Shown: positions 52,554-63,890 of the stretch, one piece after another
Position numbering within the stretch: position 1 is the stretch's first letter
Layout of the letters: each line of letters starts with the position of its first letter
Virus record (IMG/VR): IMGVR_UViG_3300042350_003081
Coordinates: 1 to 64,000 of that record
Source of the DNA: a virus
Direction: 5' to 3' (one strand)
Length of the DNA stretch: 64,000 bases
Notes under the pieces: model-generated
What the model saw: only the letters and a program-made list of their open reading frames with translations
Database searches by the model: none
Told to the model about the DNA's origin: nothing
Translations under genes and position numbers: made by a program

Positions 52554-54299
52554 TTATGGTGCGGCAACTCCAGATAGTTTTAATTTAAGATCACTTACAA
52601 AATTTACGTCGTCTAACAATTGTTTTGTTAAGTTATTTTGTACCTGATTACCCGTAGCATCAGTTACCTTAACATTAACAGTTACATTATTCTCTGTCTT
52701 GCCCTCAATTTTTATTGGTTCTGAGTAAGCGGTTTTAACCTTTTCAATTAGGTTTTCTTGAACGGAATTTACTTCTGTTGAAAACTTACTACTAAAGTCA
52801 TTAAAAGTTTTTAAAATATTTGTTTCTAAGTTTCCTATTTCGGTTTTTACCATATTATCATCACCAGTTACTTTTCCTTTTATAATTCCCTCAACTGGTT
52901 TTGTTAAGTCTCCCATTGCCGTTCTCATATCTTCGGTTGATCCAAAAATATTATCTGAAGCTTTTGCAATTTCTAATTTACTGTCAGCAACTAAACCATA
53001 AAATTTACTTAGGGTGGGTGTTGTTGCTTTTGCAAATTTTGTGGCAACCTCTCCAGTTGCCAATAAATTTTTAATTTGTGTTGTAACATCTAGTTGATTG
53101 AACGCTAACTCCTCAATTGTTTTTGAAGAATCTTCATTTGCCTTTTTTAAATTTTCAATATCTTCAGGTGTTAATTCTTCTACCTTTTTTTCCGTTGTTA
53201 TTCCGGTTTCTTTATCTCTAACTTGGATTGTAGCAACCCCATCTTTCATTTGTGCCATTGTGGCAATCATTTCTTTAGTTTCGTCATCATCAATACCTAA
53301 AGACGGCATTTTAATTTGTTTAAGTTTCATTTCAAAGTCGGAACTTTTAAGTGCCATTTTTGAAAATTCTGTTGCGGTCAATCCAACAGCTTCTGCAACT
53401 TCTTTCATTCTTCTTTTAGCCCCAGGAAGAATTTCCATCTGCCCCGTTTTTTCATTAAACCGTGTAAATTCTTTACCAAGATTTACAATTTCTTTTTGAA
53501 ATTGTTCAGGATCGTTTTGAGACATATCCATTGCCCTTAAAGGGTCTAATAAACCACTTGATGTTACGCCTAATCGTTGTAGTGCTGCTGACATATCAAT
53601 TGCCCCTTCTGGATTCATAACTTTTTCTGATTGAGCAAATATTTGTTCCATTTTAATTCCAAGTCTTTCTGCTTGTGCCGACATTTTAGCCAACCCTTTA
53701 ACTCCGTTTTCAAAATTAAAGAGATTCATTTTTTCTAAATTGTTCATTACTTTACCTGAAACCTGATTAACTGAAACTCCGGCCGATCTCGCAACCTCAG
53801 TCACAGTTTTCATTTGTTCCCCAACATCATAAACAGAAATTCCAACATCTCTAAAGTTAGTTGTTAACGTACCAACGTCTTGACCAGTAAGTTTTGCCGC
53901 GGCACTTAATTCTACAATGGCCTCTTTACTAACACTGGCCGCCCCTCCAAGACCTTGCATAATTGATATTAAATTTGTAGTTATCTCACTTTCACTATAA
54001 TCTAATTTAGTTAATTCAGGCGCTACATCAGCAATACTAGTTTTAAACTCGTCCATCCTTTCTTTAGATAAACCAAAGGCTTTTTGAACACTGTTTGCAG
54101 ATGTTTCTAACTGCGCGAAAATAGTACTATCTAATGGATTAATTGAATTAAGTAGTCCTTCAAATTGTTCGCCAATTTTTGCGGTGATAGCTCCAATGTT
54201 TAAAGTATATGCGTTTTTATCAAAGTCGGCAGCTGTTCCACTTAATATATCATCCCCTAACGAACTAGTTCCAGTAGTATTACTAAAAAAAAATGCCAT
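52554..54299 (-). CDS. Tail tape measure protein
   Basis: A 581-residue, largely helical protein with ELSAAAKLTGQDVGTLTTNF, then TVTEVARSAGVSVNQV and a later MSAQAERLGIKM segment, the pattern of TP901/gp29-type tape measures. The length is close to T4 gp29 (590 residues), which sets a tail of roughly T4 length, if the same residue-per-length rule applies. It follows the tail chaperone region directly, the usual order. The start MAFFFSNTTGTSS is preceded by AAAAGTATTTATTAATT (core 54313-54321). Confidence 0.8.
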   Translation of the reverse strand: MAFFFSNTTGTSSLGDDILSGTAADFDKNAYTLNIGAITAKIGEQFEGLLNSINPLDSTIFAQLETSANSVQKAFGLSKERMDEFKTSIADVAPELTKLDYSESEITTNLISIMQGLGGAASVSKEAIVELSAAAKLTGQDVGTLTTNFRDVGISVYDVGEQMKTVTEVARSAGVSVNQVSGKVMNNLEKMNLFNFENGVKGLAKMSAQAERLGIKMEQIFAQSEKVMNPEGAIDMSAALQRLGVTSSGLLDPLRAMDMSQNDPEQFQKEIVNLGKEFTRFNEKTGQMEILPGAKRRMKEVAEAVGLTATEFSKMALKSSDFEMKLKQIKMPSLGIDDDETKEMIATMAQMKDGVATIQVRDKETGITTEKKVEELTPEDIENLKKANEDSSKTIEELAFNQLDVTTQIKNLLATGEVATKFAKATTPTLSKFYGLVADSKLEIAKASDNIFGSTEDMRTAMGDLTKPVEGIIKGKVTGDDNMVKTEIGNLETNILKTFNDFSSKFSTEVNSVQENLIEKVKTAYSEPIKIEGKTENNVTVNVKVTDATGNQVQNNLTKQLLDDVNFVSDLKLKLSGVAAP

Positions 54300-54324: not shown

Positions 54325-55231
54325 TTATTGTGTTTTTTTATTATCCTCAACATATTTATTGATCAAATATTTTCTCACATAAGTTGGCATATTAATAAAC
54401 TCAGAATATTGGGTTCTAAAGATTCTTGAAAAATAATAAAATTCGTCAATTATTATTGTTTTATACTGATATGAAAGGCCGAAAAAATTCCACCCCAAAA
54501 GTAATGTCGATCATTACTTTTTCTCCAGACGGGGCGATAATTTCTTTTGATAAGTCTAATCTTGGTTCGTTTTCGGCTATAAATCTTCTAATATATTTAG
54601 AATCGGCAATTGGCATTTGTTGAATAAATGTTGCTATATTTCCCTTGTCTGTATTACCATCAATAGATACAATAATTAAAGATAATTTTGTTGTTATTGA
54701 TGGTGCTGTTCTATCATTAGGATATGATTTTAAAATTGTTTCTATTTTAATTTTATCAGAGATATTTAAAATCTTTAATTTAACTTGTTTTTTAGAAACA
54801 GGAAGAGTTGTGTCAAACAAACCTTCCTCATTTGGAATATTTTTTGGTTTTTTAATATTTAATTCGTCCAACAAAATTGTTGATGTAAATTTTTTATCTG
54901 TATTCGGATCATTTACGGTTATTGGATATTCGGGACCAAAAGACGTGTTTCTTAAAAATAAAAGTATTGCTTCAACGTCTCCGTCAACTAATTCTTCAGG
55001 TCTTAAATCTTTTTCATAAATTTTATTCCTAAGCAAAGGAAGAACTATACTTTCTTGAATACTTTTTTTATAGTCAGCTTCGGCAATTATGTTTTCATCA
55101 AACGCAGTTAAATAACCAACTTTAATGGTTTTCTTTTTAGATTTATAAAAGATCCCTCCAGAAGGTAGGGTTATAACATCGTGTGGTAAATTGAAATCGG
55201 CTTGTCCTGCCGTGTAAGCATTTTGTTCCAT
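54325..55231 (-). CDS. Predicted frameshift fusion of tail assembly chaperone (gpG/gpGT-like arrangement)
   Basis: The gp26-like frame stops at 54461, but a second frame, offset by +1, runs open through that region to a TAA at 54325 with no suitable ATG of its own. It encodes about 51 residues: GLSYQYKTIIIDEFYYFSR and later INMPTYVRKYLINKY. Upstream overlap has a six-T run followed by the rare codon CGG (GAA TTT TTT CGG, T run at 54482-54487). A +1 slip at TTT-C, or a -2 slip, would fuse the frames to give a product of about 301 residues. Gene order tube, chaperone with frameshift, tape measure is the standard arrangement for this mechanism. The frameshift itself is predicted, not shown. Confidence 0.6.
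54461..55231 (-). CDS. T4 gp26-like baseplate/tail assembly protein, 256 aa
   Basis: It has the opening pattern of the T4 baseplate protein family PF12322: DVITLPSGGIFYKSKKKTIK, then VGYLTAFDEN, a leucine-rich helix, RPEELVDGDVEAILLFLRNT and FGPEYPI, and a C-terminal ITFGVEFFRPF. It is 256 residues against 208 for T4 gp26. It lies between the tube and tape measure genes, the place where tail assembly chaperones are usually encoded. It ends in frame 0 at 54461, while an overlapping +1 frame continues (see the fusion entry). Confidence 0.75.
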   Translation of the reverse strand: MEQNAYTAGQADFNLPHDVITLPSGGIFYKSKKKTIKVGYLTAFDENIIAEADYKKSIQESIVLPLLRNKIYEKDLRPEELVDGDVEAILLFLRNTSFGPEYPITVNDPNTDKKFTSTILLDELNIKKPKNIPNEEGLFDTTLPVSKKQVKLKILNISDKIKIETILKSYPNDRTAPSITTKLSLIIVSIDGNTDKGNIATFIQQMPIADSKYIRRFIAENEPRLDLSKEIIAPSGEKVMIDITFGVEFFRPFISV

Positions 55232-55360: not shown

Positions 55361-55849
55361 TTAATATACTAATATACAACGATCCATTCTCATAGAACTC
55401 GTTACTTTAGCTAAACCATCACTAGTGTATGTTAAAGCTCCACCATCATATTTTGTTAAAAAAGCTCCCTCTAAAATCCATTTTTCAACAACAACTCCGG
55501 TTGGGTCTAACATTTCAAGGTCAACATTTTTTTTGTAACCAGCCGCATATCCCATTCGTCCTGTTACAGATTCAGCACATAAACGAATCCACTCCATTAA
55601 TGCCTGTGATGCTGATGGACCAATAGGGTCTCTAAAAGTTACCGCTAATTCACCCCAAGTAAATCTACCAGCAACGTATGTTTCCGTATTTAGGAAAGGA
55701 ATTGGCGTTGCTGCAATAGTAAGAGAAGGTCTTGCCGTGGACTCTACATACCACTCATTTATACCAAGTGACGAAGGAAATCTTAAGATCCATCGGTTTT
55801 CCCTTTTTGGTTCGTAGGGTATCGGCATTTTCATTAGTAAATCAGCCAT
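55361..55849 (-). CDS. Tail tube protein, gp19-like
   Basis: A 162-residue protein with the T4 gp19 layout: PYEPKRENRWILRFPSSLGI, WYVESTARPSL, a small beta-hairpin (TYVAGRFTWGELAVTFRDPI), then ALMEWIRLCAE and a final set of strands with LEGAFLTKYDGGALTYT. It is the same length as T4 gp19 (163) and forms hexamer rings of the inner tube. It has its own leader element (TGTATTTATAATAAAA, core 55884-55891) and terminator. Confidence 0.9.
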   Translation of the reverse strand: MADLLMKMPIPYEPKRENRWILRFPSSLGINEWYVESTARPSLTIAATPIPFLNTETYVAGRFTWGELAVTFRDPIGPSASQALMEWIRLCAESVTGRMGYAAGYKKNVDLEMLDPTGVVVEKWILEGAFLTKYDGGALTYTSDGLAKVTSSMRMDRCILVY

Positions 55850-55966: not shown

Positions 55967-56797
55967 TTATTCATATTCTTCTTTTCCTTTTTTAGATGTA
56001 GCATAAATCTTTAATTCATCTTTATTTGGAAAATTTTTTCTCATTGTATTCACATTTCTTATGTCGTCATCTGAAAAACCAATAAAAGGGTTAAAATAAT
56101 TACTTATTTTATTCTTTATAAAAGCTTTCTCTTGTAGTTGTTGGGACATTTGTTTAACATATGTCATAAATTCTTTCATATATTTAACTTTTAATTCTTC
56201 TGGATTCGCAGCTGATCCCTCACCAAAAGTTACAGGATAATATTTACACATATCCAAATAAGACTTTATTAGTTCATCATTGGATAAATCATCCTCATCT
56301 GATAATTCTCTATATTTTTTAAGATTTTTAACTAACTCACTTGAAGATAATCCGTTTTTGTTTTGTTTTATTAAATTATAAATGGAATTTCTGATCACAG
56401 ATGGGGTATGTCCCCTTGCTGTGACGATTGCAAAAATTGACCCGTTATTAACCGCCTCAACAAAATCAGACCAAGCAGGACCTGTTTCAGCCGTCATAGA
56501 ATCTTTCATAAATAACTTATCACCAGGAACTCTGAAGTTCTTAAAAGAATTGTCATAAAAGTCAACTATAGTATGTCCTTCATATTTAAAAGGTTTTTCA
56601 CCAATCTTAGTTCTATATTCTGCAAAATCTTCGGTAGACATACCAACAGAATTTCCCTTATCATCCTTTAAATATATTTTGGTTGGCATATACATTAGAT
56701 TGTCATCCCAGTCAAAAGCATAATACTTCATAGTAGGGGTCATCTGATCGTGAATAATCTCACTAATGATTTCTCTTACCGTATTTTTATAATTCAT
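55967..56797 (-). CDS. HAD-superfamily phosphatase-like protein, 276 aa
   Basis: I use the inner ATG at 56797 (MNYKNTVREIISEIIHD); the longer start lies in the CTATTTATTATTATG element. YYAFDWDDNLMYMPT carries the DxD of HAD motif I, AIVTARGHTP is motif II (Thr), a Lys-containing AFIKNKIS could supply motif III and GFSDDDIRNV matches motif IV acidic residues. HAD enzymes transfer phosphate through an Asp intermediate. Its substrate is unknown. Location between sheath and tube genes is odd for an enzyme. It may be an assembly factor that kept the fold. Confidence 0.7.
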   Translation of the reverse strand: MNYKNTVREIISEIIHDQMTPTMKYYAFDWDDNLMYMPTKIYLKDDKGNSVGMSTEDFAEYRTKIGEKPFKYEGHTIVDFYDNSFKNFRVPGDKLFMKDSMTAETGPAWSDFVEAVNNGSIFAIVTARGHTPSVIRNSIYNLIKQNKNGLSSSELVKNLKKYRELSDEDDLSNDELIKSYLDMCKYYPVTFGEGSAANPEELKVKYMKEFMTYVKQMSQQLQEKAFIKNKISNYFNPFIGFSDDDIRNVNTMRKNFPNKDELKIYATSKKGKEEYE

Positions 56798-56873: not shown

Positions 56874-59800
56874 TTATATATTCTCAAACGATGCTCCAGT
56901 TGGAGTAATGTAGAAGGTTATATCTATAAATTCTAAAGCTCTAGTTGGCTTAATGTAAATCTTACCGGTCATTTGGTTTCTATCTAAATCTTCAGGATCA
57001 CTAGAAACTGTTACTCTAAAGTCATAAAGACCTCTGTCTCTTCTAATCGCATCTAAGATTGGATTCACCGCATTTAAGAAGTCTTGTCTTACTTGTGCAT
57101 CGTTCTGTTCAAACAATAACCTCACGGATACCGCTGAAATCAATTTACGTGCTTGTAATAACAATCTTCTAACGTTGATTCTATCAAGAGCAGACTCTCT
57201 AACTTGTAGAGTTTTATTACCCCAAATTACAGTTCCTACATCTGAGAAGGTTGCAATTGGATTAAGTCTTCCGTTATAAAGAATGTCTCTATCTTCTTGA
57301 GTTAATTTCTTACGAGCCTTTATACAATTTACTATACCACGAGTGTAACCTGCCGCTGCGAACCAAGGGAATGCAATGTTGTCAGTTAATGCCAAGTTTT
57401 TTGTAACTTCAGCTGTTGGTGGAATATAAATTTGTGTGTTGTTTACACTGTCTCTTGTCAATACCCACGGATAGTAAGTTGCGGTATAGTTAGAGTCAAT
57501 TCCTGTGTTATCTAAGTTATCTACCGCCTCAGTTGGATAAATTAATCCATCCCCACCAGTAGTTGTTGGTAAGTAAAGATCGTAGTCAGGGGTTGTTGTA
57601 ATATACAAAGAGTCAGCTCTATTGAATTCAATCATCTGAACCGCATCTTCAACCAAATTACTGTTATTAACATAATCAATACCAGGTGTTACAAATACAT
57701 TAATATTAGTTGATTCTGGATTAGCAAATGTTTGTTGACCCAACAAGTATGCGTAGTAGTCGGTATTTGCAAAATTTTGAGTTCCATCTCCAAGAGAAAT
57801 TTCTTTAAATGCTCCCCAACCTTTAGCTGTAGGATAACGTGATGAAGGACAAGCCCCATTCAAATATCCGGTTCTACCAATTTGGAATCTATCTTCGTTT
57901 GTTCTCCATTCTCTATATATATCCCATCCGTCAAATCCTCCTTGAACTAAGAATGTAAATTTACGAGCGAACAGTCTATAATATGCGTTTGTTGGTAATT
58001 CAGGGTCTGTTATAAATGGTGAGTTACCACAAATAAATCTTTGTCCACCACTTGTTGAAAACTCGGGTCCTATTGTTAATCCACTTGCATTTACATCCAT
58101 GTGGAAACCAGCTGATCTGTAATTAAAAGGTAGACCCTCAATATCACAAGAGTTAATAGGGTTTCTTTTACCAACATATTCAAAGAATGCAGGATCCCAA
58201 CCATAAGAATTAGACATACCTAAGTAAGTTCTTCTAACGTTATCACCTGAACTAACCAAAGCATCGTCGTTTCCTGAAGATAAACCAAATGGAGGATTAT
58301 AAATAACTTCACCAGGGAAATCATACTTACCTTTAATTATCGGGAATGGTGACTGTGCTCCTGCGTAGTTTCTAAAATTAAAACCGTTAAATCCACAAGG
58401 AAGAGCGTCAATTGGAGCATCTTCAGACATTTCAACCATAACATATTTTGAATTTAATACGTATTCACCATCTAAAGTTCCAACTTTGTTTGCAATATAA
58501 TTATTTTGTCCTGGATCCATTGCACAGTTTGTGAATTTTTCTAAAACAACAGGATTTGCATCTGTATCAAAATAATCACGAATTAATATATCAAACGTTA
58601 AATTATTAAATGTTTGATTAATTATTGAAATTTTAATTAAGGTGTTGGCCCCGTCACCATCAGAAATTGTATAGAATCTAAATAAATCATAAACTTTATT
58701 ACCTCTAAGTTCAGACACAACAAATGGAGAGTATGGTGTTTGCCATTTATCTAAATACCATCCTATTGAATTTGGATCACTACTTTGTGCGGAATCAAGA
58801 GCAATTAGGTTTGGATTAAGACCTTTAATGTAACCTTTCCTCCAAGCAAAGTTTAGCCAAGATTGGAAATTTTCTTCTGCAAACACAGGAACCTCAATTC
58901 TTGGTTTTTGAAAGTTAGTTACACCAAATACTTTACTCCAATACTCAGGGTCGTTTTGACTAAATGAAGTTTCAAAGAAATATTTGACACCAAACTTATC
59001 AGTAACGTTTACACCAAAAGTGGTATAAGGATTTTTAAGAACTGAAGAATATTGACCAGTCATATTTAAAGAAACCTCTGATGTTCCTGTAACAGAATAA
59101 GACGGGTTATTTCCGGTTGAGTATGTTGCAACACCTCTTGACCTTAAAGACCCAACAACTACGTTATCATACTCCGTAAACGATGTTCCTGTATAGAAAT
59201 ACATTTTTAATACTAGAGTTCCTTGATAACAATTTAACGGTAAAGTTGTTGTCGTTGTAGTTGGTGTTATAGGAATTGGTGTTGTACAAGGGTTTGGTGT
59301 TGGTGTTGGAGAAGGAGTTAACGTTGTTGTAGTCGTAACTGGATTCATAGTTAAGTCCGTAACATAAGTGAAAAATGAATATCCACTATAATTTGTATTA
59401 CCAGTAGTATTAAATAATGCATAATACCAAGGATCATTTAAAGCTGATTCTAAATCAGTATCATCAAGTGAAACTGAAGGAACTCCAAATACGTTTGTAG
59501 ATGCTGACCACCCTGCGTTTGTTAAAGTGTTGTAATCATCAGTATCTATAGATCCAAAATATGAAATGTATTTATCTTCTGCGGTAAATGGGTTTGAATT
59601 TGTGATAACATCAAAAATCAAACTTCTAATGTCATCATTTAATGTGGAAGTGCCTCCATCAAATTGTTCGTATTGACTATAAAGAATATCTTGAATTTCT
59701 TGAGGGAATTGTGATAGATATGAAATTGTTGACACATCATTATTACAACCACTAAATGCTACGAAATAACTTTCTTGGTAAGGAAGAGCACATATTGTTT

Positions 59801-60206
59801 CACAAGTATATACATCAGTAACTGAACTTAAGCACCAAATACCAACAGTTGATGGATCAACATTTGCAACAGTTGCGATAGACCAAGACGGACCCGCATC
59901 ATATCCTGACAAACCTAATATTCTTGTTACAAATAGTTGGTTTGATTGTTGTAAATATGCTTTGGCGATATAAGATGCCTCATATTTAGGGATTTGTGTG
60001 TTTATAAATTTTTCTGGTGATGTTCCACCGAATACCGTTTGGAATTCGTTAAAACTTGTGATAAAAATTGGTTCGAATGCTGGACCAATTAACGTTTCTC
60101 CCACGATACCCAAAGTTGTTACTCCGACACTTTGTGCCACAAAACTTAAATCAACTTCTGAGGTATAAACACCTGGTGAAACAAAAACTTTACTATTAGT
60201 TGCCAT
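56874..60206 (-). CDS. Contractile tail sheath protein (gp18-like) with large insertion
   Basis: A 1110-residue protein against 659 in T4. The N-terminal region (PGVYTSEVDLSFVAQSVGVT) and the C-terminal part are typical sheath: GTVIWGNKTLQ, then RINVRRLLLQARKLI, FLNAVNPILDAIRRDRGLYD and ITFYITPTGA. The middle (about 120-560) is an expanded insert, including a mucin-like stretch of Thr and Pro at about 287-327 ([10 protein letters not shown] and TTTTTT). The insert should lie on the outer face of the sheath. Start MATNSKVFVSPGVY is preceded by AAAGTATTTATA (60237-60248). Confidence 0.9.
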   Translation of the reverse strand: MATNSKVFVSPGVYTSEVDLSFVAQSVGVTTLGIVGETLIGPAFEPIFITSFNEFQTVFGGTSPEKFINTQIPKYEASYIAKAYLQQSNQLFVTRILGLSGYDAGPSWSIATVANVDPSTVGIWCLSSVTDVYTCETICALPYQESYFVAFSGCNNDVSTISYLSQFPQEIQDILYSQYEQFDGGTSTLNDDIRSLIFDVITNSNPFTAEDKYISYFGSIDTDDYNTLTNAGWSASTNVFGVPSVSLDDTDLESALNDPWYYALFNTTGNTNYSGYSFFTYVTDLTMNPVTTTTTLTPSPTPTPNPCTTPIPITPTTTTTTLPLNCYQGTLVLKMYFYTGTSFTEYDNVVVGSLRSRGVATYSTGNNPSYSVTGTSEVSLNMTGQYSSVLKNPYTTFGVNVTDKFGVKYFFETSFSQNDPEYWSKVFGVTNFQKPRIEVPVFAEENFQSWLNFAWRKGYIKGLNPNLIALDSAQSSDPNSIGWYLDKWQTPYSPFVVSELRGNKVYDLFRFYTISDGDGANTLIKISIINQTFNNLTFDILIRDYFDTDANPVVLEKFTNCAMDPGQNNYIANKVGTLDGEYVLNSKYVMVEMSEDAPIDALPCGFNGFNFRNYAGAQSPFPIIKGKYDFPGEVIYNPPFGLSSGNDDALVSSGDNVRRTYLGMSNSYGWDPAFFEYVGKRNPINSCDIEGLPFNYRSAGFHMDVNASGLTIGPEFSTSGGQRFICGNSPFITDPELPTNAYYRLFARKFTFLVQGGFDGWDIYREWRTNEDRFQIGRTGYLNGACPSSRYPTAKGWGAFKEISLGDGTQNFANTDYYAYLLGQQTFANPESTNINVFVTPGIDYVNNSNLVEDAVQMIEFNRADSLYITTTPDYDLYLPTTTGGDGLIYPTEAVDNLDNTGIDSNYTATYYPWVLTRDSVNNTQIYIPPTAEVTKNLALTDNIAFPWFAAAGYTRGIVNCIKARKKLTQEDRDILYNGRLNPIATFSDVGTVIWGNKTLQVRESALDRINVRRLLLQARKLISAVSVRLLFEQNDAQVRQDFLNAVNPILDAIRRDRGLYDFRVTVSSDPEDLDRNQMTGKIYIKPTRALEFIDITFYITPTGASFENI

Positions 60207-61553: not shown

Positions 61554-62066
61554 TTATAAACCTTTAAATTCGTTTGGCCCAACAGGTGCGGCAATTATTG
61601 TTCTAAAAAATGGTTTAAACCCTTTATATGTGTGTTTTGTATCTGAAATTACACGACCATCATTAACAACCGTATAATATCTAACAAAATTTTCACTATC
61701 ATAATACCCAACATAATCACCAAAATCAACATCAATATTTAAGTTTTCTAAAGTTTTTAAATAAACAGAAATAGTAATATTACCTGGCTCAAACTGATCC
61801 ATTTTTGTTGATCCAATCATTTTATTTTCAGGTGCTGCAATAGTAATTTGTGCGTTAAATTCGACAGGAGGTAAAAATTTAATACCGTCTTCCACAACCT
61901 CACCATAAACATCGTCAGTTTTAATTTTGTTTCTATCAATTTTATAGAGAACACAAGTAAAGTTCATATCACCTATCAACCACTCCTGACCCATACTAAT
62001 TTCAAGTTCAAAATCACGATCCCCAAAAAATTTACCTAATCTAGAAATTGGAACATTATTTTGCAT
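61554..62066 (-). CDS. Neck protein, gp14-like, putative
   Basis: A 170-residue beta-rich protein starting MQNNVPISRLGKFFGDRDFE, with IDRNKIKTDDVYGEVVEDGI, a segment like those in T4-type gp14 neck proteins, then a strand-rich C-terminal half with YVGYYDSENFVRYYTVV. Synteny (just upstream of gp15-like and sheath) supports a neck or head-completion role. It is shorter than T4 gp14 (256). An AAGATATTTATCAATAAAA element (core 62084-62091) precedes it. Assignment is tentative. Confidence 0.5.
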   Translation of the reverse strand: MQNNVPISRLGKFFGDRDFELEISMGQEWLIGDMNFTCVLYKIDRNKIKTDDVYGEVVEDGIKFLPPVEFNAQITIAAPENKMIGSTKMDQFEPGNITISVYLKTLENLNIDVDFGDYVGYYDSENFVRYYTVVNDGRVISDTKHTYKGFKPFFRTIIAAPVGPNEFKGL

Positions 62067-62126
62067 AAAAACACTATTTTATTGATAAATATCTTTTTTA
62101 TTAGTATTTTTATTAAAAGACTAAAA

Positions 62127-63890
62127 TTGGAAAACTTATCTTCCTTAGTTGAGCAAAAAGCGCTTGTACTACTCGAGTCATATAGTGGTGCGAATAACCA
62201 TATAATATACTTACAAAATAAAAAAAAAACTAATGGTAAGTTTTATCCAACAAGAACTCAATCGGATTACATTATAAATTATTTTAACACAACACCAAAG
62301 ATCGCACGTAAGTGGGTTGATCTTGACACATATTTCGCAAAGAAGTTTGCAGAAGAAAGATATTTGATGGAAACCCCTGAAAAAATTTACATTGAGAAAT
62401 TATTAGTTGAGAAAGAAAAATCGTATCATATTTGGGGTAAATTCTTTGAGAAAGATCCTTTAACAGAATTTTGGGTTCCTAAATCAGCATTAATAAAATC
62501 ACACAATGTTGAGGTAGTTGAGGTAGATTATTCTAAATATAGTCATAGACCTCCACTACAACATCAAAAAGAAGCAATAGAAAAATTAGCAGGATCAAGA
62601 AGATTCATTCTTGCCGATGATATGGGACTTGGAAAAACTACTTGTACGATCATAGCAGCTTTAGAGACAGGTGCAAAAAAAATATTAATTATATGTCCCG
62701 CATCATTAAAGATTAATTGGCAACGTGAAATTGAAAATTATTCAGATAGACCTGTTTATATTTCGGAAGGTAAGAAATTTTCAACTGAATCTGATTTTGT
62801 TATTGTTAATTATGATATTTTAAAAAACTTTCACGACACAAAAGAAAAAGACAATTCATTACTCAACCAATCAAATTTTGACCTTGTTATCTTAGATGAG
62901 GCTCACATGATCTCAAATCCCCAAGCTCAACGAACAAAAATCATAAATCATTTTGTTAAGAATATTAAAAGAGTTTGGTTATTAACGGGAACTCCAATGA
63001 CTTCTCGTCCAATGAACTATTATAACCTATTAAACATTATTGAATCACCAGTCGCTCAGAATTGGATGGCTTACGCTATTCGTTATTGTCAGGGTTATCA
63101 ATTTATGGCAGGTAGAAGAAAAGTTTGGAATGTAACGGGAGCATCTAATTTAGAGGAATTAAGAGATAGGACTTCAAAACAAATTCTTCGTAGGTTAAAA
63201 GAAGATGTGTTAGATCTTCCTGATAAAATTATTTCTCCTGTATATCTTCGTTTAAAATCAAAAGAGTATGAAGAACTGATGGGGGAATATTATGCTTGGT
63301 ATGATAAAAATCCTGACGAAGCATCATCACTTACCGTTCAGTTTTCAAAATTAATGAAGGTTAGAAAAGTTATTTCAAATGAAAAAACAAAACAAACCAT
63401 AGAAATTGTAGAAAATATTATTGAACAAGGAAAAAAAGTAATCGTATTTACAAACTTTACAGATTCTTTACAAACGATTTACCAACACTTTGGTAAACAA
63501 GCAGTTTATTTAGACGGTAGTTGTTCTAAACCTCATCGTCAAAAAGCTGTTGACGAATTTCAAGACAATGAAAAAATTAAAGTTTTTGTTGGAAACATAA
63601 AGGCGGCTGGTGTTGGGTTAACTTTAACTTCTGCTGAGGTTGTAATTATGAATGACCTATCATTTGTTCCAGCAGAACATTCTCAAGCCGAAGACAGGGC
63701 GTATAGATATGGTCAAAAAAATAATGTGTTGGTTTATTATCCTTTATATGAAAACACAATAGAAGGTGCAATATATGATATTCTAAATCGTAAAAAACAA
63801 ATTATCAGAACTGTAATGGGCGATCAATTAGAAGAAAACATTGGTGATGTTGCCGAAGAGATGTTAAATATGATAAATAAATATCGATAG
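62127..63890 (+). CDS. SNF2-family helicase/translocase (UvsW- or SMARCAL1-like)
   Basis: A superfamily 2 ATPase. Motif I is LADDMGLGKTT, motif Ia ILIICPASLKINW, motif II VILDEAHM (DEAH), motif III LLTGTPM, and the C-terminal lobe has VIVFTNFTD and VGLTLTSAEVV, then AEDRAYRYGQ. The last block is typical of SNF2 proteins with the QxxGRxxRxGQ motif. I favour the TTG at 62127, because the upstream ATG at 62061 overlaps the neck gene start and adds a hydrophobic, non-conserved stretch (ILLINIFFISIFI). It probably remodels forks or drives branch migration like T4 UvsW. It is on the plus strand, divergent from the neck gene. Confidence 0.85.
   Translation: MENLSSLVEQKALVLLESYSGANNHIIYLQNKKKTNGKFYPTRTQSDYIINYFNTTPKIARKWVDLDTYFAKKFAEERYLMETPEKIYIEKLLVEKEKSYHIWGKFFEKDPLTEFWVPKSALIKSHNVEVVEVDYSKYSHRPPLQHQKEAIEKLAGSRRFILADDMGLGKTTCTIIAALETGAKKILIICPASLKINWQREIENYSDRPVYISEGKKFSTESDFVIVNYDILKNFHDTKEKDNSLLNQSNFDLVILDEAHMISNPQAQRTKIINHFVKNIKRVWLLTGTPMTSRPMNYYNLLNIIESPVAQNWMAYAIRYCQGYQFMAGRRKVWNVTGASNLEELRDRTSKQILRRLKEDVLDLPDKIISPVYLRLKSKEYEELMGEYYAWYDKNPDEASSLTVQFSKLMKVRKVISNEKTKQTIEIVENIIEQGKKVIVFTNFTDSLQTIYQHFGKQAVYLDGSCSKPHRQKAVDEFQDNEKIKVFVGNIKAAGVGLTLTSAEVVIMNDLSFVPAEHSQAEDRAYRYGQKNNVLVYYPLYENTIEGAIYDILNRKKQIIRTVMGDQLEENIGDVAEEMLNMINKYR

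Follow-up and report, generated by a model that had tools for sequence, protein, structure and literature searches.

We analyzed a 64,000-nucleotide stretch of viral DNA (positions 1 to 64,000 of IMG/VR virus record IMGVR_UViG_3300042350_003081; referred to here as the window) and identified a tail assembly chaperone gene of the gp26/gp51 family that is probably expressed in a short version and a long version by means of a +1 programmed frameshift. We assign this reading a probability of about 0.88. Both reading frames, the slip site, and the C-terminal domain encoded in the second frame (i.e., the extension) are conserved among relatives, and the programmed frameshift that an initial annotation of the window had proposed for a gp26-like tail chaperone is upheld as the best reading of the locus.

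The gp26-like open reading frame (ORF) ends with ...GGG GTG GAA TTT TTT CGG CCT TTC ATA TCA GTA TAA, and the +1 frame is open from position 54510 to a TAA stop at 54327-54325 (Table 1). The ends of the two frames (54461 and 54325), and the run of six T followed by CGG (TTTTTTCGG at 54487-54479), are as the initial annotation had described them. Also as described, the +1 frame of the window lacks any ATG ahead of that in the MPTYVRKYL segment. The sole possible start codon ahead of this segment is a TTG (54498-54496), which had gone unmentioned.

Table 1. Features of the chaperone locus in the window and small ORFs discussed in the text
Feature	Position	Strand	Length or basis
gp26-like tail assembly chaperone, short form, 0 frame	54461..55231	-	256 aa, TAA stop included
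Proposed shift site, GAA_TTT_TTT_CGG	54479..54490	-	Invariance in relatives and codon rarity
+1-frame extension (T-like C-terminal domain), shared FF to stop	54325..54486	-	+51 residues; long form, 301 aa
47-nt region in which the shift must fall	54464..54510	-	+1-frame opening to 0-frame stop
Conserved TTTGGGGTG just 5' of the site	54491..54499	-	Candidate stimulator; holds TTG 54498-54496
Tail tube protein gene, adjoining the chaperone upstream	55361..55849	-	phrog_4542, E 8.7e-20; PF06841, E 3e-5
581-aa gene, adjoining downstream, probable tape measure protein	52554..54299	-	Assigned by position and length
Small ORFs annotated after gp26 in P-SSM5, phiAS5, RL38J1, and Cygsa01	L064:4693-4866, L076:1262-1384, L067:4654-4830, L080:809-982		

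The gp26-like ORF of the window matched PF12322 T4_baseplate (gp26/gp51) with a score of 34.4 bits (curated cutoff, 24.5) over profile positions 10 to 218 of 219, and it matched phrog_150 with an E value of 2.5e-12. The short form and the extension domain were modelled apart. For the short form, the AlphaFold2 model had a predicted local distance difference test score (pLDDT) of 85, and its best match among 350,542 PDB chains was the HK97 tail assembly chaperone 2ob9 (probability, 0.85; next match, 0.05). Matches of the same model in BFVD were baseplate-hub or gp26 proteins of T4-likes and SP-15. The extension was predicted to be a three-helix domain (pLDDT, 89), in line with the helical domain that the initial annotation had considered plausible for these 51 residues. 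Searched alone, the extension had no significant match in Pfam, PHROG, or NCBIfam. We do not claim a link between the extension and the DUF6760 protein of contractile injection systems, for which there was no family match and no relative among bacterial genome contigs scanned with the window and SP-15 proteins; the name DUF6760 was not found in our literature search. The plasmid collection contained no match to T4 gp26.

A scan of IMG/VR returned 29 loci, of which 28 contained the full gp26 end (60 to 100% identity). The initial annotation had suggested examining related genomes for the overlap, the T6-CGG site, and the two open frames, and all of these were kept in the full-length loci (28/28), the site as T6-CGS. 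In these relatives, the open +1 frame reached 44 to 47 residues beyond the gp26 stop, and the pattern ..RT.Y.EF...PTY.RK.L..K.. was retained in the extension; contig L007 ends inside the extension. Beyond the gp26 stop, the ratio of nonsynonymous to synonymous substitution rates (dN/dS) was 0.107 in the +1 frame and 1.49 and 1.80 in the other two frames (gp26 itself, 0.195). On this sequence evidence, the +1 frame beyond the stop evolves as a protein. The site GAR_TTT_TTT_CGS was invariant in 13 distinct relatives with a gp26 synonymous difference of approximately 0.55; in one group (L023 to L027), it was kept even though the gp26 stop had shifted in position and turned into TGA. The window's record and six related +1-lineage records of up to 272 kb each contained one chaperone gene and one extension.

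Immediately upstream of the site, the TTTGGGGTG block (54491-54499) showed almost no synonymous change in 11 divergent relatives, though it lies outside the translated overlap: TTT GGG was invariant in 11/11 sequences and GTG was present in 10/11. This constraint possibly reflects a stimulator or a start codon.

The +1 layout extended to a sister clade and to more distant phages. Scanning with the Mel-JY01 extension yielded 28 sister-clade loci, 23 of which were examined in detail. All 28 contained GAC_TTT_TTT_TGG, followed by an extension (FFGLSNEY...) at the same +1 offset. In L053, just 17 nt separate the opening of the extension frame from the 0-frame stop (ACTTTTTTTGGTTTAAGTAA), and the frame contains no near-start codon; the shift in this locus is therefore pinned to the T7 run. 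The same layout was found in Microcystis, Flavobacterium, Rhodothermus, Bacillus SP-15, Streptococcus, and Pseudomonas phages, with the sites AAC TTT TTT TGG in Mel-JY01, AGC TTT CTT TGG in immuto, TCC TTT TTT TGG in RM378, GAA TTT TTT CAC in SP-15, GAA TTC TTT CGT in GXN1, GAC TTC TTT CCC in Psa3, and AAC TTT CTA in LR756508. The break between the frames thus recurs across dozens of metagenome assemblies made independently, as well as in isolate genomes, and the stop varies in both position and codon; therefore, a sequencing error or a pseudogene derived from what is really one ORF is, for practical purposes, excluded.

Three proteins annotated as separate small products with internal or TTG starts, SP15_046 (L034:4635-4754), immuto35A_232 (L065:3848-3958), and WWT39326.1 (L031:4740-4976), are +1-frame extensions of the upstream chaperone gene.

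From the sequence, we infer the shift itself, its efficiency, and its direction (+1 over -2) as follows. Most ribosomes would read GAA TTT TTT CGG CCT TTC ... through to the stop and release the 256-residue short form (G-like). A minority would stall while tRNA-Phe occupies the P site on the second UUU and the A site presents the very rare CGG codon; the tRNA-Phe would slip one base forward, from UUU to UUC, and reading would resume as GGC CTT TCA ..., yielding the 301-residue long form (GT-like), which would end in the three-helix domain. If assembly resembles that with lambda G/GT (PMC5009743), the tape measure protein would be coated by the short form, and tube subunits would be brought in by the long form.

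Codon use and the bases around the run are consistent with this scheme. CGG accounted for 3 of 18,325 codons in the counted ORFs (0.16 per 1,000) and CGC accounted for 2, while TTT_CGN occurred in frame once in the same ORFs, at the shift site. The window site, A_TTT_TTT_CGG with a +1 extension, has neither the X_XXY_YYZ heptamer nor the -1 extension frame of a canonical -1 site; it does have a P-site UUU, a following C, a CGN codon in the A site, and a +1 extension, as expected of a UUU_CGN motif. In the +1 lineages, the base before the run was A, G, or C and never T (GAA, GAG, GAC, AAC, AGC, TCC), and the codon after it was CGG, CGC, TGG, CAC, or similar. In the -1 lineages with a UUU-type heptamer described below, the preceding base was always T (AGT, AAT, GCT, TCT, GAT, GGT) because U_UUU_UUY requires it. 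The base before the run and the next codon may together set the direction of slippage.

In a further set of phages, the extension lies in the -1 frame over a U_UUU_UU heptamer (P-SSM5, LG08, RL38J1, VmeM-32, LR756511, KVP40, S13, phiAS5, Syn9, S-PM2, and HTVC008M), the third base being C, U, or, in RL38J1, G. Approximately 49 distinct cyanophage- and pelagiphage-like loci share this -1 layout, and one further locus is truncated; the phages with -1 extensions include cyanophages, KVP40, a pelagiphage, and Rhizobium phages. Where a frameshift layout was present, the record contained one PF12322 gene, versus two in T4, Acj9, AS-gz, phiP4-3, Skers, and RB43; in this count, the genes of Mel-JY01, immuto, and Psa3 were undetected by the model, and a second hit in RL38J1 was a 20-position fragment below the cutoff. 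In the two-copy phages, gp26 has neither a slip site nor an extension frame, and gp51 carries the tail in frame. The initial annotation had suggested that the window phage may unite the equivalents of T4 genes 26 and 51 by frameshifting. The two are not complementary halves, as T4 gp26 and gp51 both match PF12322 over the whole length of the profile and gp51 corresponds to the long form. Because both are full-length family members and the gp51 tail is in frame, T4 appears to have duplicated what other phages make by frameshifting.

Profile comparisons connected the extensions to one another. The -1 extensions matched the gp51 tails (98.3%; E, 1.6e-14), with none of 200 column shuffles reaching the real score of 66.9 (best, 19.6). 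They likewise matched the +1 extensions in hhalign (90.2%; E, 1.5e-6), and none of 200 column shuffles reached 32.8 (best, 17.0).

Small ORFs after gp26 in P-SSM5, phiAS5, RL38J1, and Cygsa01 have been annotated as "gp51" or "baseplate hub assembly catalyst." These four ORFs correspond to the C-terminal tail of T4 gp51 only. Such ORFs lie, Cygsa01 excepted, in the -1 frame over the slip heptamer and are probably for the most part frameshift extensions, not genes. More generally, where a small ORF labelled "hypothetical" or "gp51" follows gp26, as in the annotations of many phages, it is probably the tail of a longer protein.

Several observations weigh against the reading of the window locus as a +1 frameshift. 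Downstream RNA structure with covariation was looked for, and none was conserved. By E value, the fold match to 2ob9 is weak (0.23), with a template modelling (TM) score of 0.49 to the target. In the profile comparison of the extension with gp51 that the initial annotation had proposed, the direct match between +1 extensions and gp51 tails was weak (13%), one of 200 column shuffles reached the real score, and the link runs via the -1 extensions. In addition, the T6 run of the window genome permits a -2 slip as well, and each of the 13 distinct window-clade sequences keeps the +1-frame TTG (54498), which on sequence grounds leaves internal initiation some probability in this clade. A hairpin predicted over GGGGTGG..CGGCCTTT showed no covariation and was rejected. 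The Shine-Dalgarno-like GGGGTG is a candidate stimulator, with a spacing that differs from that in the RF2 case.

The T6 run and the conserved TTG bear on specific alternatives. The initial annotation had left the slip as either +1 or -2. In a -2 shift, tRNA-Phe would move back two bases within T6 and give FFF-G rather than FF-G; the T6 or T7 runs of the window and sister clades would allow this, and the tail chaperone of phage Mu uses -2 (PMC3498833). At the +1-offset sites of GXN1, Psa3, and LR756508, however, tRNA-Phe can re-pair at +1 (UUC) and cannot at -2, and for this reason we prefer +1 as the direction of the shift. In addition, +1 shifts typically have a rare codon in the A site (PMC3498833), and we consider -2 slippage unlikely. 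These three sites, with that of immuto, also bear on RNA polymerase slippage, which would generate a mixed mRNA pool from the homopolymer of six or seven T and make a ribosomal shift unneeded. The runs are interrupted at the +1 sites of all four phages. Six to seven T is also short for polymerase slippage, and we regard this explanation as very improbable.

The extension could instead be a separate small protein, translated from TTG 54498 or by stop-coupled reinitiation, with no fusion made. Besides the conserved TTG, such a product would fit Pseudomonas phage Cygsa01, in which the extension ATG overlaps the gp26 stop (TAATG) and the slip site is absent, and most of the cyanophage loci examined, in which the extension frame has an ATG 5 nt past the first base of the stop. 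The TTG, however, is forced by the conserved 0-frame TTT GGG. Furthermore, 11 of the 23 sister-clade loci have no ATG, GTG, or TTG ahead of the conserved core, some of them lacking even a near-start codon, and no suitable ATG was present in RM378, KVP40, S13, phiAS5, LG08, VmeM-32, or HTVC008M. The conserved extension block begins exactly at the shared FF (FFGLS..Y), and the domain is fused in frame in T4-type gp51. These features argue against a free product as the sole outcome at the window locus, which we judge improbable, and favor the frameshift.

Two variants of the layout are recorded here in their own right. In Cygsa01 (L080:800-820), the slip site has been lost (AGC ATT TTC ACC) and the ATG overlaps the stop, possibly marking a switch from frameshifting to coupled reinitiation. 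In the cyanophage loci (L101 to L180), the U_UUU_UUC heptamer is accompanied by a conserved extension-frame ATG located 5 nt downstream of where the gp26 stop codon begins, and these phages possibly make both a fusion and a free short protein.

We consider it likely that one homologous chaperone family has taken three routes to the same two proteins (i.e., a -1 shift on U_UUU_UUY, a +1 shift on UUU_CGN or UUU_U, and, in T4, duplication with in-frame fusion), that the direction switched at the same Phe-Phe position, and that the window lineage carries a bacterial-virus form of the influenza-type UUU_CGN +1 site, the A-site Arg codon being rare. Given that +1, -1, and duplicated forms occur in one family, the ratio of short to long chaperone, and not the mechanism, seems to be what selection keeps. 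With these forms, the candidate determinants of slippage direction (the base preceding the run and the codon in the A site) could be studied in a natural series.

Frameshifted G/GT chaperones are near-universal in long-tailed phages and are usually of the -1 type, and a 2016 review treated T4 as an exception to conserved G-T frameshifting (PMC5009743). According to PMC10885494, Vladimirov, Gautam, and Davidson (2022) described the T4 chaperones as a short gene and a long fused gene, and PMC12846349 credits Vladimirov 2022 with poly-T -1 signals in T4-like chaperone genes. As represented in these citing papers, then, both the two-gene form of T4 and the -1 sites found in some T4-likes have been published before. 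The features that seem new are +1 shifting within the gp26/gp51 family, the UUU_CGN site, in which the codon is very rare, and the change of slip direction between homologous sites.

The window phage shares the PF12322 family with T4; the T4 counterpart of the short form is gp26, and the -1 extensions homologous to the window extension match the tail of gp51. It differs in having one gene with an out-of-frame extension, whereas T4 has two PF12322 genes and no frameshift site. With the -1 chaperones of T4-likes, lambda (G/GT), and SPP1 (17.5/17.5*, with a -1 shift at UUUUUUC; PMC6316719), it would have in common one gene, two C-terminally nested products, and a shift where the short form ends, ahead of the tape measure gene (in the window, a probable one); the C-terminal domain of the T4-like -1 chaperones is homologous to that of the window. 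In contrast to these systems, the window would use UUU_CGG for a +1 shift; the base preceding its run is not T, leaving no -1 heptamer, and the A-site Arg codon is very rare. The tail chaperone of the haloarchaeal myovirus HSTV-2 is also reported to be produced by "very likely +1 frameshifting" (PMC5009743), in this case in an archaeal virus. Influenza A PA-X has an experimentally shown +1 site, UCC_UUU_CGU, for which the rare A-site codon has been discussed as a stimulator (PMC3498833). The likeness is confined to the decoding motif, in which the P-site tRNA moves from UUU to UUC and the A site holds a seldom-used Arg codon, CGN; the gene is unrelated and read by eukaryotic ribosomes. Bacillus phage 0305phi8-36 provides an alternative route to G and GT forms, with a two-gene tail chaperonin (PMC2147016) that differs from the window locus in its partly duplicated domains and lack of a frameshift.

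The 581-residue gene downstream of the chaperone had no significant family match in Pfam or PHROG searches; its length may be compared with that of T4 gp29 (590 residues). In the window (at 54299) and in four related loci (L008, L013, L014, and L015), the N termini of this gene product are quite different, although the chaperones are up to 97% identical, which suggests recombination right after the extension.

Among the other genes of the window, the tail sheath protein (56874-60206) is 1,110 residues long, far longer than T4 gp18, and contains a Thr/Pro-rich stretch; only its C-terminal part matches sheath families. An ORF between the sheath and tube genes (55967-56782) has an HAD-phosphatase-like DWDDNL motif and no Pfam match. 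On the plus strand, in the opposite orientation to the tail genes, positions 62061-63890 encode an SNF2-type helicase (PF00176; E, 4.7e-32).
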